From positions 1 through 12,471 of the forward strand of contig DLXW01000303.1 in NCBI GenBank assembly GCA_003448685.1: a stretch of DNA of 12,471 nucleotides. The letters run 5' to 3'. Within the stretch, counting starts at the first letter, position 1, and each line of letters opens with the position of its first letter. Under the pieces are notes generated by a model. It saw only the letters and a program-made list of their open reading frames with translations, did not search any database and was not told the DNA's origin. The stretch is from Cyanothece sp. UBA12306. Lineage in GTDB: Bacteria > Cyanobacteriota > Cyanobacteriia > Cyanobacteriales > Microcystaceae. A program made the position numbers and the translations under genes. Shown here piece by piece: positions 2,180 through 11,488 of this stretch.

Positions 2180-3505
2180 CTAGACATTAATGTCCAGGTA
2201 TGTCGAGTCTGGCCGAGGTTTTTGACTTTTAGAAAAACCTCTTGAGTAAACGGCTTTAGCTCGGACCAACCAGTCGGGCTCGTTGACTGCGATATCATGA
2301 CCAGTTTCAAAACCAAGTTTTTCGAGTGCCATCAACGCAGCGTATTTCAGAACCCAGTTTTTTTCCGAGAGACTCTCTTGTAGAGCAGGAATAGCCCGTA
2401 CTTCCCCCAGTTCTCCCAATGCGATGGCGGCTGCAGCTCGTGATTTCTGAAATTGAGGTTGACGATTATGCAATGCTTCTAGCAGTAAATCATAGGCTGG
2501 AGCATATTTCAACCAGCCTAATAGTTTTGTGACATGAAAATGAGCTCCATAATCACTATGAGCTTCTTCGGTATAAGTAGCCAATAGTGCAGCGGGTGAG
2601 TTCTTTGAATAATGGTCGAGAATCGTTTTACTAGCTAAATAACATTTTCCAAAGTCAGTTTCATATAATGTCCTCACCAAAATCGTTAAATCTGGCGTTT
2701 CCTCGTAGGTATGCACTAAATCCAAATCATCGGGATGATCTCGCAACGTCTGCTCTAAATGGGGTTGAATCATTTTAAAAGTGATTTCCTCAGTTGGAAT
2801 ACCTGCTTCTGCCAGCATCCGAATACCCCGAAGTCGAAACACTAAGGAGACAGGACATCGAGCAATATTGGGAATGGCATCGTAGTAACGAGAATCGATC
2901 AAATCCTGAATAGACAACCGCCTCGCTAACACATTTGAGTGTCCCAACATAGCCACAACTTTTCCCATCTGAGAATAATCCTTGGTAAAACGGCAGACTG
3001 AAGTTATGGCGGCACTGGCAGTTGGGGGGTCAGGATTATCTACAAATCGGCGAATTCGCTCTAGAGCCGGTCTATAATTTAACTTAGTCAGGGTATGAAT
3101 AATTATGCGGTGAGTTTGCCCAGGTTTTTCCAGCAACTGAGCTACATCTTCGAGAATATGGTCGTCAGTCGTTCCAATTTCTCCAATCGCCCAGACGGCA
3201 TTTTCTACTGTGTAGCAGTCGTCATCGTTTAAACAGCTGTGAATAATTTCCAAAGCTTGTTTGGCCTTCAGTCTCCCGAGAGTCTCTATGGACTTTCGAC
3301 GCACGATCCGATTATCGAGAGTGGGATCGTCGTTCTGTACTGCCCGCATCAAAGCATTGATAGCCCGTTCTGTTGGAAAGTTAACCAAATGGGATGCAGC
3401 GATGTAGCGAGAGTCATGTTCTTTAATCTGGTCTTGGGGAGTATCTAAAACATTGATTGCCTGGTCTTCCGTCAGATTGAAGAAGTTAAAAAAGCGTTTA
3501 TCCAT
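2180..3505 (-). CDS. cpeY: CpeY, E/F-type phycoerythrobilin lyase for alpha-phycoerythrin
   Basis: This 441-aa protein matches CpeY over its full usual length. It begins MDKRFFNFFNLTEDQA, followed by IAASHLVNF and the signature block DNRIVRRKSIETLGRLKA. HEAT repeats include DDDCYTVENAVWAIGEIG, LEKPGQTHRIIIHTLTKLNY and DPPTASAAITSVCRF. A central SLVFRLRGIRMLAEAG segment and a C-terminal pair of repeats (AAAAIALGELGEVRAIPALQ and WVLKYAALMALEKLG) complete the solenoid. In Fremyella, CpeY attaches phycoerythrobilin to Cys82 of alpha-PE, helped by CpeZ. That acceptor is present here in cpeA. The gene is divergent from cpeF, 104 bp apart, so the two lyases may share a regulatory region. No clear Shine-Dalgarno precedes the ATG at 3505-3503. 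Confidence 0.95.
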   Translation of the reverse strand: MDKRFFNFFNLTEDQAINVLDTPQDQIKEHDSRYIAASHLVNFPTERAINALMRAVQNDDPTLDNRIVRRKSIETLGRLKAKQALEIIHSCLNDDDCYTVENAVWAIGEIGTTDDHILEDVAQLLEKPGQTHRIIIHTLTKLNYRPALERIRRFVDNPDPPTASAAITSVCRFTKDYSQMGKVVAMLGHSNVLARRLSIQDLIDSRYYDAIPNIARCPVSLVFRLRGIRMLAEAGIPTEEITFKMIQPHLEQTLRDHPDDLDLVHTYEETPDLTILVRTLYETDFGKCYLASKTILDHYSKNSPAALLATYTEEAHSDYGAHFHVTKLLGWLKYAPAYDLLLEALHNRQPQFQKSRAAAAIALGELGEVRAIPALQESLSEKNWVLKYAALMALEKLGFETGHDIAVNEPDWLVRAKAVYSRGFSKSQKPRPDSTYLDINV

Positions 3506-3609: not shown

Positions 3610-4464
3610 GTGTTAACACCCGAACAAACAGATAACTTACTTGAGAAAATTGCTGAAGAAATTAGCCTCAAAACTTTCGACTCAAATAACCAGCAACTTT
3701 TGAAATCTCTGGTTGAATGTTTGGGCGATACGCGAGGGATGACTCGACTGCGTGCTGCACAGACTCTCGGAGAAATTGGTCAGCCAGCAACTCCTTTTTT
3801 ATTAGACGCTTTAGCCAATCACTCAAATGTAGTTGTACGAAGGGCTGCTGCTAAAACTTTAACACTGATCGCCGATCCTCAGACTATTCCCCAGTTAATC
3901 GAATCTTTCCTCAATGATGAAGATACTGTGGTTCAAGGCTCATCAGTAGGCGCATTAGCCCGTATGGGAGAAGCGGGAGTTCTTCCCTTACTCGACATTT
4001 TAGGCTCGCCAGATGTTCCAGAAAGTGCTAAAGGTCATGCTGCCTGGGCCTTAGCCTTTATTGGGGCCAAAGCTAAAGAGCATTTATATCAGGCAGTTTC
4101 CCATTATTCCCCAGTGGTTCGCGCAGCTGTTGTCGGGGCGATCGCCAAAGTCGCGGCCGAAGAACCTGATCAAGATTTATTGGATATCTTGGTCAAGTCT
4201 CTGAGTGATAGCAACTCAAACGTACGCTGTGAAACAGCCGCAGTCTTAGGAAACCTGACTTATAAGCCTGCTATCCCTAATCTTGTTGAGTTGCTAAATC
4301 ATGTTGATGAAGAAACCAGAAAATCGTCAGCATTGTCCTTGATGAAGATTGGTGATCCCATGGTTTTAGAACCTTTACAAGAGGCCTTAAACTCTGAATC
4401 CGCAACAGCAGTTCAGTCAATCATAAAACTAGCAATTTCTCAACTTGAACGTACCCGTGACTAA
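3610..4464 (+). CDS. cpeF: CpeF, HEAT-repeat lyase for doubly linked PEB on beta-phycoerythrin
   Basis: This 284-aa E/F-clan HEAT-repeat protein agrees with CpeF (formerly MpeV-like) in length and motifs. It has GDTRGMTRLRAAQTLGEIG near residues 40-58, NVVVRRAAAKTLTLIADP, DEDTVVQGSSVGALARMGE, ESAKGHAAWALAFIGAKAKE, SPVVRAAVVGAIAKVA, NVRCETAAVLGNLTYKPAIP and a C-terminal KLAISQLER. In Fremyella, CpeF is needed for the doubly linked PEB at Cys48/Cys59 of beta-PE, both of which are present in the cpeB here. The start is GTG 3610-3612 (MLTPEQTDNLLEKIAEE), supported by the GGGA a short distance upstream and by the N-terminal match to the family. It diverges from cpeY and ends 16 bp before a long inverted repeat. 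The close paralogue MpeV is a possible alternative name, but a cpeY/cpeZ/C-PE setting favours CpeF. Confidence 0.85.
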   Translation: MLTPEQTDNLLEKIAEEISLKTFDSNNQQLLKSLVECLGDTRGMTRLRAAQTLGEIGQPATPFLLDALANHSNVVVRRAAAKTLTLIADPQTIPQLIESFLNDEDTVVQGSSVGALARMGEAGVLPLLDILGSPDVPESAKGHAAWALAFIGAKAKEHLYQAVSHYSPVVRAAVVGAIAKVAAEEPDQDLLDILVKSLSDSNSNVRCETAAVLGNLTYKPAIPNLVELLNHVDEETRKSSALSLMKIGDPMVLEPLQEALNSESATAVQSIIKLAISQLERTRD

Positions 4465-5030: not shown

Positions 5031-5528
<498 letters not shown>

Positions 5529-5603: not shown

Positions 5604-6352
<749 letters not shown>

Positions 6353-7684
6353 ATGCAAAACCCCAGCGGTCATCAAACAGGAAAAGCCGAGAAGCAGTTG
6401 CTAGATATGCTGCACGAAAGGCTAAGAAAAATAGAAGGAGATGCTCAGACTAAGGCGGGAGAAATCGAGTTAATTAAGCAAAAAATTCGGGAACTTCTCC
6501 CGAGTGTAGACACAGGAAAAGCACTCCCCTATAAGAAGACGCTAAGTGGCAGAATACAGGTTTTGCATCTAAATTACACGCGAAGCCAGACAGATGAACC
6601 TATCGAGACAGAAATAGATTACTTGAAGTTCTTTGCTAGAACAGTGGCAGAACTTGGTTTACGACTAGAAATCTTGACCAACGGAAAAAGTCGACAGGAT
6701 ATTGAAGAGGAATTAGCGAAAGATGAATATGAGGCACTCGAGTACACGATAACCGAAAGTCAGTTCCCTGTGTGGAAGTGGGCAGAAGACAGTGTGGAAT
6801 ACTTAGAAAATGGGCGAGTGGCTATCCCTTACCAATTCAATGACAAACTACTCGAATGGGCGATGACAGAGGGAAGGAGACATCGATGGCAAGGGAAAAT
6901 AGATCAAGAGAACTTAGAAGAAGCACTACGAGAAGATCACTTATGGATTCCTTTGGGGATAAGAGTTAATGCTTCAAAAATGGGATGGGAACTCGAGTGT
7001 GCCGCGTCAACCGCAGAACAAGATGTCGCTCACATCAGAGCATATATAGAAGGAGGGAACATGATCACAGGAGAAGATGCGACAGGCAAACCAGTGATTG
7101 TAGTTGGCAAAGACGCGATCGCCGCAACAGCCTACATTTACCAACTCAATGACAACGATGTGAGGAGAATTATCTGCGAAGATTTTGGTTTGGAAAGCAT
7201 CGAACAAGTTATTTGTATAGAACAGCCAGGACAATTCCATCTGGACATGGGTATGCTGTTTATCGGAAATGGTGTAGTTATAGTCAACGATAGCAGCGCG
7301 ATGCTTAAAGACGCGATTGAGATGGCAGAAATAGTCCCTTGCTTAACAACTCAGAAAATGGCAGCAAAGCTGAAGTTGCAATATCAACTAGAGGAGGAAG
7401 CCACAAAAGATCTAAAAGCAGCAGGGATAGAAGTCAGACGAGAGAAACTAGAACAGGATGTTCTTTATAACTTCTTTAACGGTGAGTTCGTAGAGGGAAA
7501 AGATGGATTTAACTATTACATAACCAACGGAGGACCACAAGAACACGAGGAAAGGTTTAAGACTTTGATGGTAAAGGAATGGAAAGTAGTGAAAAAAGTC
7601 ATCTTCAGTCCTAAAGAGGCAACACACAAGAGTCTACAAGAAAGAGGAGGAGTAGGATGCCGAATCAAGGGAACAAACAAGTAA
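6353..7684 (+). CDS. Pentein-fold (agmatine/arginine deiminase-like) protein of unknown function next to cpeBA
   Basis: I do not recognise this 443-aa protein by name, but its motif order fits the pentein superfamily (agmatine/peptidylarginine deiminases, arginine deiminases, amidinotransferases). VWKWAEDSVEYLENG (around Asp146) resembles the W.RD.GP loop. EGGNMITG (Glu233-Asn236) matches the EGG(N/D) motif. FHLDMGMLF (His296, Asp298) matches the H-x-D catalytic motif. The C-terminal GGVGCRIKG (Cys436) matches the GG..C nucleophile motif, placed as usual a few residues before the end. Residues 8-50 are charged and helix-like. Members act on guanidino groups of arginine or related compounds through a Cys thioester-like intermediate. 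The substrate is unknown. The gene is divergent from cpeB and uses AGA/AGG for 13 of 22 arginines, unlike pebA. No strong Shine-Dalgarno precedes the ATG; the length and motifs support the start only loosely. Confidence 0.75.
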   Translation: MQNPSGHQTGKAEKQLLDMLHERLRKIEGDAQTKAGEIELIKQKIRELLPSVDTGKALPYKKTLSGRIQVLHLNYTRSQTDEPIETEIDYLKFFARTVAELGLRLEILTNGKSRQDIEEELAKDEYEALEYTITESQFPVWKWAEDSVEYLENGRVAIPYQFNDKLLEWAMTEGRRHRWQGKIDQENLEEALREDHLWIPLGIRVNASKMGWELECAASTAEQDVAHIRAYIEGGNMITGEDATGKPVIVVGKDAIAATAYIYQLNDNDVRRIICEDFGLESIEQVICIEQPGQFHLDMGMLFIGNGVVIVNDSSAMLKDAIEMAEIVPCLTTQKMAAKLKLQYQLEEEATKDLKAAGIEVRREKLEQDVLYNFFNGEFVEGKDGFNYYITNGGPQEHEERFKTLMVKEWKVVKKVIFSPKEATHKSLQERGGVGCRIKGTNK

Positions 7685-7978
7685 TATTCATCTTTTTTAG
7701 AGGTTAGTATCTGAAATCTAGATAAAAATGTTGCGATTTCTGAAATGAGACATAGTCTAACGATACAATGATTGTGGCGTTCTCCCACTGTTAACCGTAA
7801 GTGGTATACCGCTACGCGAAAGGCAAAAGGCATTCATGATAAAGGCAAAAGTAGGCTAGACAAGGGTTTCAAGCTCTGAGACTGTCCTCAAGTTTTTGCG
7901 TAGTGCTATATAACGGGAGGGCAATTGCGACATTAAGTCGGGTGTGCAAACCAATATGAGCGACTCTGGAATTTGATT
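7685..7978. other. Spacer without a gene, with a small direct repeat
   Basis: I see no credible coding frame in these 294 bp. AAAGGCAAAAG occurs twice (7819-7829 and 7841-7851), spaced 22 bp start to start, like a decayed GGCAAAA heptamer array. GAAATC (7713-7718) and GATTTC (7735-7740) form a weak inverted repeat after the pentein-like gene. A six-codon frame (ATG 7956 to TGA 7974-7976) ends just before the ATG of the next gene. The promoter of the HEAT/DUF1838/peb genes may lie here but cannot be placed. Confidence 0.5.
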
Positions 7979-8635
7979 ATGGAAATCGATCAGATAAAAG
8001 CGAATTTAAAAGCTGCCGACTCTCAGCAGCGACTCAAGGCCATTACGGAGTTAAAAAATTATGAGGCGAATATAGCGGTTCCACTCCTGAGAAGCGTTAT
8101 GGGAGATCCAGAGTTTTTAGTCCGTTCCTTTGTTTCGATGGGATTGGGTAAACAACTAACAGCTGACTCGTTGGCGACCTTATTGGAAATCGTGAAGTTT
8201 GACCAAGATCCTAATGTCCGAGCCGAAGCAGCTAATTCGCTGTCAATGTTTGGCGAAGTAGTGGGTCCTCATTTGCTGCGGGCGTTTATCCAAGATGATA
8301 GCTGGCTAGTGCGCCGCACCATTCTAGCAGCTTTGATGGATTTGAATTGTCCAGAAGAACTATTCGAGGTCTGTATTTGTGGCCTAATGGGAGAAGATCT
8401 TACAGTACAAGAGACAGCACTCAAGGGTTTTAGTTTCCTGGCAGGTACAAGCAAACAAGAAGCAGCTAAAAATCAACTATTATCAAGGGTACAAGATCCC
8501 CAACCTCACATTCGCTATGGTGTTGCTAAGGCCTTGAGAAAATTTGAGGGGTCTGAAGTTCGTGAGGCTCTTTCTCAGCTTAAACAAGATCAAGACCATC
8601 GAGTTGTCGGGGCGGTTTTGGAGCAATTACTTTGA
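7979..8635 (+). CDS. HEAT-repeat protein of the bilin-lyase-like (E/F) clan
   Basis: This 218-aa helical repeat protein starts MEIDQIKANLKAADSQQRLK. It has several HEAT units: DPEFLVRSFVSMGLGKQ, DPNVRAEAANSLSMFGEVV, DDSWLVRRTILAALMDL, DLTVQETALKGFSFLAG and DPQPHIRYGVAKALRKFEG. The recurring D-P/D-x-x-V-R pattern is shared with CpeY, CpeZ, CpeF and CpcE/CpcF. However, similar HEAT proteins occur in cyanobacteria without phycoerythrin, so lyase activity cannot be assumed. A role as a lyase-like or chaperone-like helper is inference from location. I chose ATG 7979; an in-frame TTG at 7973 would add two residues. The stop (TGA 8633-8635) overlaps a TTG that could start the following DUF1838 gene, so the two are likely translated from one message. 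Confidence 0.75.
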   Translation: MEIDQIKANLKAADSQQRLKAITELKNYEANIAVPLLRSVMGDPEFLVRSFVSMGLGKQLTADSLATLLEIVKFDQDPNVRAEAANSLSMFGEVVGPHLLRAFIQDDSWLVRRTILAALMDLNCPEELFEVCICGLMGEDLTVQETALKGFSFLAGTSKQEAAKNQLLSRVQDPQPHIRYGVAKALRKFEGSEVREALSQLKQDQDHRVVGAVLEQLL

Positions 8636-8652
8636 CTGGAAATTTTGATTTT

Positions 8653-9453
8653 ATGAGAGATTATTTAGAAGATTATGAATTGAGTACCCTAGTTTTCTAC
8701 AAAAAGAACCATGGTCAACAACTTTACTATGAATGGTCTGGAGAAGTTTGGTGGATAGAAGAACCAGGTAAACCAAAAGAGAAGCTATTCTCAATTATCG
8801 GCATGAATGCCACTAAAATACTACTCAAATCCCATCCTGACCATGGTGAAATAGGATATCGACTCAATAGGGAGATTGGATTATTTTGTGACCAGATGAC
8901 TGGCGAAATCTTGCATTACTGGAAGCCAAGAAAAGATGTCCAAGAGGTTCCAGTGGTGCATATTGCTAACCGAATGGTACAAGGATCACCCCGAACCAGC
9001 AAAATAATTATTCCTCAAGGACAGGGATATGTGACTAAAGTTAAGGAAATTCCTCTGGAATATCCTCACCCGTTAGCCACTGATCCCCAATATAAGGATT
9101 ATTGCCCTGGGGAGACTTTCAAAGGAGTTGAGTATTTTACCTCGAGTTTTGCTCGACCTGGGGTAACAGAAATCCCCCCAGCTAAATGGGCTAGAGATTG
9201 CCCCTGGTTACCTTGGATGAAGTTGGGATACGGTCATCCCGCTCGATTAAGGTTTGAAACAACTATCTCCAGAGTTAAGTCTTTTGAGCAAATTAATCCT
9301 AAATTAGTCAAGCTAGTCAGGGAAAAATTGCCAATCTATGAATTTACCCCAGACGAGTGCGACGAAGCAAATATGACAAGTCTTCTCTACTTTAGAAAAC
9401 ACTTTGAGTCATACTTGAGAGGAGAAATTTTTCCAATCGCAGAAGATGTATAA
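8653..9453 (+). CDS. DUF1838 family protein
   Basis: This is a 267-aa protein from ATG 8653. An overlapping TTG at 8632 would give 273 residues and a TTGA overlap with the upstream stop. The pattern agrees with DUF1838: WSGEVWWIEEPGKP, LFSIIGMNATK, then REIGLFCDQMTGEILHYW, VPVVHIANRMVQG, and the late block WARDCPWLPWMKLGYGHP followed by LPIYEFTPDE. The family has no established biochemical activity that I can name. There is no signal peptide or membrane segment, so it should be cytoplasmic. It follows the HEAT-repeat gene with almost no gap and lies 163 bp before pebA, all on the + strand. It could belong to a chromophore or phycobiliprotein assembly function, but that is inference from position. 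Confidence 0.75.
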   Translation: MRDYLEDYELSTLVFYKKNHGQQLYYEWSGEVWWIEEPGKPKEKLFSIIGMNATKILLKSHPDHGEIGYRLNREIGLFCDQMTGEILHYWKPRKDVQEVPVVHIANRMVQGSPRTSKIIIPQGQGYVTKVKEIPLEYPHPLATDPQYKDYCPGETFKGVEYFTSSFARPGVTEIPPAKWARDCPWLPWMKLGYGHPARLRFETTISRVKSFEQINPKLVKLVREKLPIYEFTPDECDEANMTSLLYFRKHFESYLRGEIFPIAEDV

Positions 9454-9616: not shown

Positions 9617-10351
9617 ATGTTTCAGCCTTTTCTCCAACACCTAGAAAAAGAACTGTTTAGTCGCTTTACTCTAAGCAGTCGTCCTATCGCTCCAGAATTG
9701 GAATTTCAAATCAGCCAACGGGGAAAAAATCCCGCCATGATTGAAAGCTGGTGCTATCAATGTCCTCAGTTGCGAAAAATCCGTTACACTTATATTAATG
9801 CTGGGGAAACAGCCCAAATTTTTAATAGTGTTATTTATCCGAGCTATCAATATGATTTGCCTTTGCTGGGCGTTGATTTTTTAGCCTTTGGTCAGAAAAA
9901 AATCTTAGTGGTTTTGGATTTTCAACCCCTGTTCCGTGACCCAGATTATCTAGAAAAATATATTAAACCTATGGCACCGATTCGTGAGAAATATAATGAA
10001 TTGGCACAAGACTTAGAGATGAAGTTTTATGATGCCAATCAGTATTTTTCTCCCTATTTATTATTTGCTAAAACTGATGCCCAAACGGTTGTTAATCGTC
10101 TCTTTCCTGCTTATCAAGAATATCTTCAATTATATTGGCAACTCGTAGAACAAGCCCAGCCCAAAACAGATCCTGCTGAGATTGAACGGATCGTCAAGGC
10201 CCAGAAAGATTACGACCAATATAGTGCGGAGCGAGATCCTGCCTCAGGGCTATTTAGTAGCTATTTCGGTCATGAATGGTCTGAAGAATTCCTTCATGAA
10301 TTTTTGTTTGAAGATGCTGTTTCTGTCCCTGTCGCTGCGGAGAAAAAATAA
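9617..10351 (+). CDS. pebA: PebA, 15,16-dihydrobiliverdin:ferredoxin oxidoreductase
   Basis: This 244-aa ferredoxin-dependent bilin reductase is the usual PebA length. PebA reduces the C15=C16 bond of biliverdin IX-alpha to 15,16-dihydrobiliverdin, the first step to phycoerythrobilin, with electrons from ferredoxin. Family blocks are present: RKIRYTYINAGETAQIFNSV, YDLPLLGVDFLAFG with the conserved active-site Asp87, VVLDFQPL, FDBR-typical YFSPYLLF, and YSAERDPASGLF with Asp207 before the C-terminal FLHEFLF. The ERDPA.GLF...FG..WS..FLHEFLF end separates it from PebB. PebB is encoded downstream, but 381 bp away instead of directly adjacent, because a mobile-element relic lies between. No Shine-Dalgarno is visible. 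All ten arginines use CGN codons. Confidence 0.95.
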   Translation: MFQPFLQHLEKELFSRFTLSSRPIAPELEFQISQRGKNPAMIESWCYQCPQLRKIRYTYINAGETAQIFNSVIYPSYQYDLPLLGVDFLAFGQKKILVVLDFQPLFRDPDYLEKYIKPMAPIREKYNELAQDLEMKFYDANQYFSPYLLFAKTDAQTVVNRLFPAYQEYLQLYWQLVEQAQPKTDPAEIERIVKAQKDYDQYSAERDPASGLFSSYFGHEWSEEFLHEFLFEDAVSVPVAAEKK

Positions 10352-10732: not shown

Positions 10733-11488
10733 ATGACCCTCTACCAACCTTTCTTAGACTATGCTTTTACCCTAATGCAAGACCAACTTTCCTTGCAGCC
10801 CTATCCAATTCCTGAAGGGTTTGAGAGAAAAGAAGAGACCACAGGGAAGGGAAAAAGACTCGAAAGCGTTGTCACCACCAGCTATGCTTTTAAATCTCCC
10901 AAACTCAGACAAATTCGAGCCGCTCACGTTCAAGGGGGCAGTTCCCTACAAGTTCTCAACTTTGTCATCTTCCCACAGTTAACTTATGATTTGCCCTTTT
11001 TTGGGGCGGATTTAGTGACTTTGCCTGGGGGACACCTCATTGCTTTGGATATGCAGCCTCTCTTCCACGATGAGGCTTACCAGCAACAATATACTGAGCC
11101 GATCTTGCCCCTCTTCAAAAGCCACCAACAGCATTTACCCTGGGGGGGAGACTTTCCAGAAGAAGCGAAACCCTTCTTTTCTCCAGCCTTCTTATGGACT
11201 CGTCCCCAGGAGACAGAAGTGGTAGTAACAAGAGTTTTTGAGGCTTTTAAGGACTATCTCCAAGCTTATTTGAATTTCGTAGAGCAAGCCGAACCAGTTA
11301 CTGATAGTCAAAGACTTGAAGAGATTCTTCAAGCACAAAGGCGTTACATCGCTTATCGAGCAGATAAAGACCCTGCGCGAGGAATGTTTACTCGTCTTTA
11401 TGGGGAAACATGGACAGAGGAGTATATTCATGGATTCCTCTTTGATTTAGAACGATACTTATTTGGAAAACAATTAAAAGAATATTAA
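10733..11488 (+). CDS. pebB: PebB, phycoerythrobilin:ferredoxin oxidoreductase
   Basis: This 251-aa ferredoxin-dependent bilin reductase reduces the A-ring diene of 15,16-dihydrobiliverdin to phycoerythrobilin, completing the pathway begun by PebA. PebB-specific blocks are [10 protein letters not shown] at the start, [20 protein letters not shown], and [20 protein letters not shown] with the conserved Asp93. These are followed by [18 protein letters not shown] and [17 protein letters not shown] with Asp213, and a [12 protein letters not shown] end. The length is normal for the family and all key regions are intact. The start at ATG 10733 gives the expected N-terminus, though no Shine-Dalgarno precedes it. 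Its leader is contributed partly by the IS200/IS605-type relic upstream, so it may depend on pebA read-through or on a newer promoter. cpcL follows after 138 bp. Confidence 0.95.

Follow-up and report, generated by a model that had tools for sequence, protein, structure and literature searches.

A pentein-fold protein associated with cyanobacterial phycoerythrin genes, and Arg148 of CpeB as its candidate substrate

What might a protein resembling guanidino-group enzymes do inside a cluster of phycoerythrin (PE) genes? A 12,471-nucleotide stretch of the Cyanothece sp. UBA12306 genome (contig DLXW01000303.1, hereafter the window) is such a cluster, and an open reading frame (ORF) on its forward strand, at positions 6353–7684, encodes a 443-residue protein divergent from cpeBA. 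An earlier note had read this protein as a member of the pentein superfamily and guessed that its targets might be arginines of phycobiliproteins. We observed the pentein fold, a conserved catalytic set, an association with PE genes and covariation of the gene with Arg148 of the PE beta subunit CpeB, which adds a candidate residue to that guess. Our leading reading, held tentatively, is an active pentein enzyme acting on a protein arginine, most likely CpeB Arg148, with deimination as the predicted reaction.

Catalytic residues, fold and distribution of the pentein protein

The ORF contains the motifs WAED (Asp146), EGGN (Glu233), HLD (His296 and Asp298) and GGVGC (Cys436), at the positions given in the earlier note. 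In an alignment of 59 rows including the query, Asp146 is Asp in all 57 rows with a letter at that position, and Glu233, His296, Asp298 and Cys436 are conserved in 59/59. A set of 20 rows reaching down to 20% identity retained Asp146, His296 and Asp298 throughout and Glu233 and Cys436 in at least 90% of rows, the exceptions being one row with QGG and another that ends before the Cys. Because these residues are conserved across the alignment, the catalytic motif is not a chance match; judged by sequence, the ordered Asp, Glu, His-x-Asp and C-terminal Cys of pentein catalysis are present. Model comparison confirmed the pentein propeller fold of guanidino-group enzymes, bearing out the assignment in the note. 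Against three relatives, the gene gave nonsynonymous divergence (dN) of 0.11–0.13 and synonymous divergence (dS) of 0.53–0.66; dN well under dS is consistent with a gene under purifying selection.

Searches retrieved 169 relatives at E ≤ 1e-3; the protein has one match within its own genome. Among the best 120 of the 169, those that are named are called ‘hypothetical protein’, three of them also arginine deiminase in UniRef. Nothing scored above cut-off in Pfam (E 0.03 for a HAD-like family), NCBIfam (20.6 bits for an SDR family whose cut-off is 413), PHROGs (E 0.006 for a family of unknown function) or the PDB, the last searched with both the single sequence and a profile. A match to the agmatine deiminase family PF04371, as the earlier note had anticipated, did not appear at E ≤ 1 in Pfam, nor did one to PF03068 (PADI). 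Comparing profiles gave agmatine deiminase probabilities of 18% and 5%, a weak match, and the pentein assignment therefore rests on fold and motifs. Three distant pentein-like relatives of 20–27% identity, from the same phylum and another class, carry EGGN or QGGN and FHID and have no Pfam match above cut-off (L029, 1261–2643, minus strand; L030, 229–2172, plus strand, running off its contig; L031, 1006–2106, minus strand).

The pentein gene occurs in 14/388 sampled genomes of the class. CpeY scored above cut-off in 78 of these genomes, 10 of the 14 carriers among them (Fisher 3e-5), and 68 of the 78 lack the pentein gene, which is an accessory gene among PE genomes. It was found in 8/8 sampled genomes of a Leptolyngbya-like genus and 4/9 of a Crocosphaera-like genus; absence in metagenome-assembled genomes (MAGs) may reflect incompleteness, as in G653 (73% complete). 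The cyanobacterial carriers number 25 (the window's genome, 23 others and G211), of which 23 have PE markers, taken as CpeY above cut-off or a CpeB with 78% identity or more. One carrier that can be cultured is Leptolyngbya sp. PCC 7375 (locus L016). The proposed link to PE genes thus stood, and confinement to PE strains, which the earlier note had raised, holds for these 23 and not for the two actinobacterial loci among 25 loci, whose genomes both lack CpeY; for two MAGs, considered below, it was not shown. The genes around the actinobacterial relatives (L025, L026), listed by eye, included no recognised PE gene or gene of an extracellular contractile injection system (eCIS).

Covariation with CpeB residue 148 and its place in the PE structure

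To ask whether any PE arginine tracks the pentein gene, alignment columns of carriers and non-carriers were compared. The first comparison, of 15 carrier and 38 non-carrier CpeB sequences, gave Arg148 in 14/14 carriers with the position and 16/38 non-carriers. In the main comparison residue 148 was Arg in 21/21 carriers and 19/49 non-carriers (Fisher 4.5e-7), the other non-carriers having Phe (17), Leu (9), and Asn, Ser, Met and Gln (one each). Genomes entered this comparison if the fetched DNA contained a CpeB at least 78% identical and at least 140 residues long, which left aside 4 of the 25 carriers (G392, G397, G403 and G211) and 32 of the 81 non-carriers. G401 has partial copies, and the one spanning position 148 was used. 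The codon in the window is CGT at 5715–5717, on the minus strand, within cpeB (5604–6158, minus strand, 184 residues).

Dependence between gene and residue was then assessed by a trait-model test, run with a custom script on a tree built without column 148. Of 804 residue-site tests 734 finished, covering all 84 for CpeB, all 83 for CpeA and 567/637 for CpeY. The likelihood ratio (LR) of the dependent over the independent model was 29.6 for CpeB 148, first among the 734, the next-ranked other site being CpeB 54 at 18.0. On trees from CpeA and CpeY together or CpeY alone, which hold no CpeB column, CpeB 148 still gave LR 25.0, and 400 simulations without dependence reached a maximum of 15.8. 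Since likelihood tests can overstate dependence when one state is fixed, the sober measure is a count of independent pairs: of eight carrier/non-carrier pairs on the tree, five favoured Arg148, none opposed it and three were ties, a 5:0 score found in no other of 2407 residue-site combinations.

Further sequences fell on the same side. The carrier G211 and the non-carrier G642 were recovered after the main comparison, and in this later look G211 has Arg148, and the non-carriers G659, G642 and G653 have Phe, Leu and Met. The pentein of G211 is about 54% identical, with no PE gene within the 4.2 kb fetched around it. Five further contigs, apparently holding both genes (the two were paired indirectly, by a longest contig of equal length), have Arg148 in 6/6 CpeB, compared with 54/114 among the CpeB listed. 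A close contrast is provided by G143, which belongs by kinship to the window's genus, is nested among carriers, lacks the pentein gene and has Leu148. Its cpeBA lies beside pebAB, and the 303-bp gap between them corresponds to the cpeB leader joined to the pebA leader of carriers, with no recognisable pentein remnant.

CpeA Met90 was examined and rejected: it equalled Arg148 in the first small comparison and reached LR only 10–12 on three trees. Judged by the marker residue of PMC9705338, the type of bilin carried, phycoerythrobilin or phycourobilin, does not confound the comparison: residue 139, numbered 141 in that paper, is His in 70/70 rows. Separately, Ile in place of Val at CpeB 54, between the bilin cysteines 48 and 59, tracks the gene in 15/21 carriers against 4/49 non-carriers. 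Some carriers also have a CpeB-like gene of 59–68% identity (L113, L114, L123 and L118), without the 146–152 insertion or with Gln148, mostly beside a normal CpeB of the C-phycoerythrin (C-PE) type.

A structure paper on Arg148 was sought only after the statistics had singled out this residue. The CpeB of the 1.14 Å C-PE structure from Phormidium sp. A09DM (PMC5783998) has 184 residues and the same numbering as the window's CpeB; the bilin sites described there correspond to Cys48 and Cys59 (doubly linked bilin), Cys80 and Cys165. As that paper reports, the Arg148 side chain stacks in 10 of 12 subunits on ring C of the Cys48/Cys59-linked bilin and bonds to ring D, and in the other two is bent away through crystal contacts. 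The residue lies on a seven-residue insertion shielding the solvent side of the pigment and, in a set of 34 PE beta sequences, is described as the one residue in contact with the bilin that lacks strong conservation. The blue edge of the band of PE is tentatively attributed there to the doubly linked phycoerythrobilin.

The proposed reaction and its alternatives

The covariation with CpeB Arg148 lends indirect support to a function as protein-arginine deiminase. In the proposed mechanism the target is Arg148 on the exposed 146–152 loop of CpeB. By analogy with agmatine deiminase and the peptidylarginine deiminases, the guanidinium would be held by Asp146 and Asp298 while Cys436 attacks its carbon, and His296 and Glu233 would drive ammonia release to give citrulline. 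Being neutral, a citrulline at position 148 would stack less firmly on ring C of the Cys48/Cys59 phycoerythrobilin and bond less strongly to ring D, and this weakened contact may tune or finish the chromophore. The fullest version, in which a dedicated phycobiliprotein-arginine deiminase, from a family partly fused to contractile-injection cargo domains, places citrulline at CpeB 148 and so tunes a light-harvesting chromophore, is possible and somewhat doubtful when taken whole.

Among the papers listed by searches of open-licence literature, none links a deiminase or citrulline to a phycobiliprotein. If true, the proposal would add to phycobilisome maturation a step of a new kind, in which an arginine touching a chromophore is edited, and would bear on why the sole variable bilin-contact residue of PE beta subunits, as reported in PMC5783998, varies. 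It would offer a function for a family left almost wholly as ‘hypothetical protein’ in the sources, and it predicts that trypsin would no longer cut at one site and that a mass shift of 0.984 Da would appear.

Several points weigh against it. Arg148 is common among non-carriers (the 19/49 above), one example being G042, whose CpeB is identical to that of PDB 7ap5; dependence would therefore run from the enzyme to the arginine and not the other way. Arginine is also described at 148 in the Phormidium C-PE structure (PMC5783998), from a strain outside the carrier and non-carrier sets. The contrasts are few, with a one-sided p of about 0.03 for 5:0 and pair support of 0.72, 0.93, 0.90, 1.0 and 0.53. 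The carrier MAGs G397 and G403 (91–93% complete as G645 and G557) have no CpeY above cut-off and no C-PE-type CpeB, and five of the nine Crocosphaera-like genomes, all non-carriers, fall outside the PE and residue-148 comparison. Shared habitat could also drive both the gene and Arg148.

That last point enters the strongest competitor, a hydrolase of a small guanidino compound (arginine, agmatine or another), co-expressed with PE genes for phycobilisome nitrogen traffic, with the Arg148 link reflecting habitat or lineage; the earlier note had offered free guanidino metabolism tied to nitrogen as its own alternative. We regard this as unlikely, albeit a serious contender: a canonical agmatine deiminase and a PADI-type protein are already encoded in the window's genome, and the proposal leaves unexplained both why a bilin-stacking arginine is the best tracker of all the finished tests and why G143 lacks gene and Arg148 together. 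The enzyme might instead modify arginines of another phycobilisome protein (a linker, CpeA or a lyase), with CpeB Arg148 changing only to compensate within the complex they share. In seven loci the gene diverges from linker genes, and the covariation tests covered CpeB, CpeA and CpeY; however, of the 28 arginine tests that finished in CpeB, CpeA and CpeY (70 CpeY tests lying outside), only CpeB 148 exceeded LR 7.2, and we consider this version improbable.

Less probable again is a non-catalytic, chaperone-like assembly factor that grips Arg148 during lyase attachment of the doubly linked bilin. PE assembly does employ the chaperone-like CpeZ (PMC7948978), and the pentein gene sits among lyase genes, but across the 59 aligned sequences the catalytic set, with Cys436, does not vary. 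A used or retired contractile-injection cargo, present in PE clusters by chance, is very improbable: three relatives (P0132, P0147 and P0150) have an N-terminal eCIS_core domain, which the window protein lacks, and nearly all cyanobacterial carriers (23/25) are PE genomes.

Gene order and comparison with known systems

The order of genes in the window is tadA, a HEAT-repeat gene, cpeY, a second HEAT gene, cpeBA, the pentein ORF, a third HEAT gene, a DUF1838 gene, pebA, pebB and a phycobilisome linker. The bilin lyase for CpeA, cpeY, lies at 2180–3505 on the minus strand (NCBIfam 749.8 bits, cut-off 600), and a HEAT-repeat protein of 284 residues at 3610–4464 on the plus strand may be CpeF, the lyase of the doubly linked bilin. 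The alpha subunit gene cpeA occupies 5031–5525 on the minus strand. The bilin reductase genes pebA (9617–10351) and pebB (10733–11488), on the plus strand, both score above NCBIfam cut-offs.

The start codons of cpeB and the pentein gene are separated by 194 bp (6159–6352), the spacing given in the earlier note, which had described this as a shared control region. A 39-bp block within it (about 6275–6313), upstream of cpeB, is shared almost unchanged by six Crocosphaera-type loci, whether or not they carry the pentein gene; because it is kept in a relative without that gene, the best-conserved part of the region belongs to cpeB, and the block is a possible PE control element by its sequence conservation.

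Flanks of up to 10 kb, often ended by a contig boundary, were inspected at 23 loci (L002–L024), and at 13 of them include cpeA or cpeB. L010 combines a HEAT lyase-like gene with linkers, and the flanks of L005, L013, L014 and L019 show nothing beyond linker-type genes or a HEAT gene, neither of which is necessarily a PE gene. Orthologues beside cpeBA, as the note had suggested, are found divergent from it in the window and in four Crocosphaera loci (L002, L004, L006 and L007); the arrangement is not general, the seven linker-divergent loci being others and five of the 23 (L003, L008, L009, L012 and L017) having no PE-cluster, linker or HEAT gene in the flank. In the window, L002 and L007 the pentein gene lies between cpeBA and pebAB, with pebAB following on the same strand. 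The HEAT-repeat and DUF1838 genes between pentein and pebA (window 7973–9453) vary among relatives: L002 lacks both and runs from pentein to pebA without any other window-type gene, and L007 lacks DUF1838. A DUF1838 gene is also found near PE genes in L078. A peptide-maturation role was considered on account of an asparagine-synthase-like neighbour in Adonisia, whose Pfam match is below cut-off, and was set aside.

Among known systems, agmatine deiminase (PF04371) differs from the pentein protein, which has N-terminal helices, conserved Arg175 and Arg178 between Asp146 and Glu233, and occurrence with PE genes, besides the lack of a PF04371 match and the weak profile score (18%) given above. 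The canonical agmatine deiminase of the window's genome is encoded elsewhere (L056, 2876–3925, minus strand; PF04371, 8.7e-111), adjoining an apparent carbon-nitrogen hydrolase gene. The peptidylarginine deiminases, comprising cyanobacterial and animal PADI (PF03068) and the Porphyromonas enzyme PPAD, are likewise set apart by the missing PF03068 match, and a separate PADI-type protein is present in the same genome (G000, L103; PF03068, 2.0e-156). With eCIS-associated cargo (eCIS_core/DUF4157; PMC8213781, PMC11297309) the likeness runs through P0132, P0147 and P0150 (663–785 residues), which join an N-terminal eCIS_core domain to a pentein domain and by this architecture are apparent deiminase-like cargo of contractile injection systems; the window protein differs in having no such domain and in its link to PE genes. 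CpeF/MpeV and CpeZ, as described in PMC9705338 and PMC7948978, would share with it the same target region of CpeB, the doubly linked bilin at Cys48/59; they belong to the E/F-type lyase clan, whereas the window protein is a pentein.
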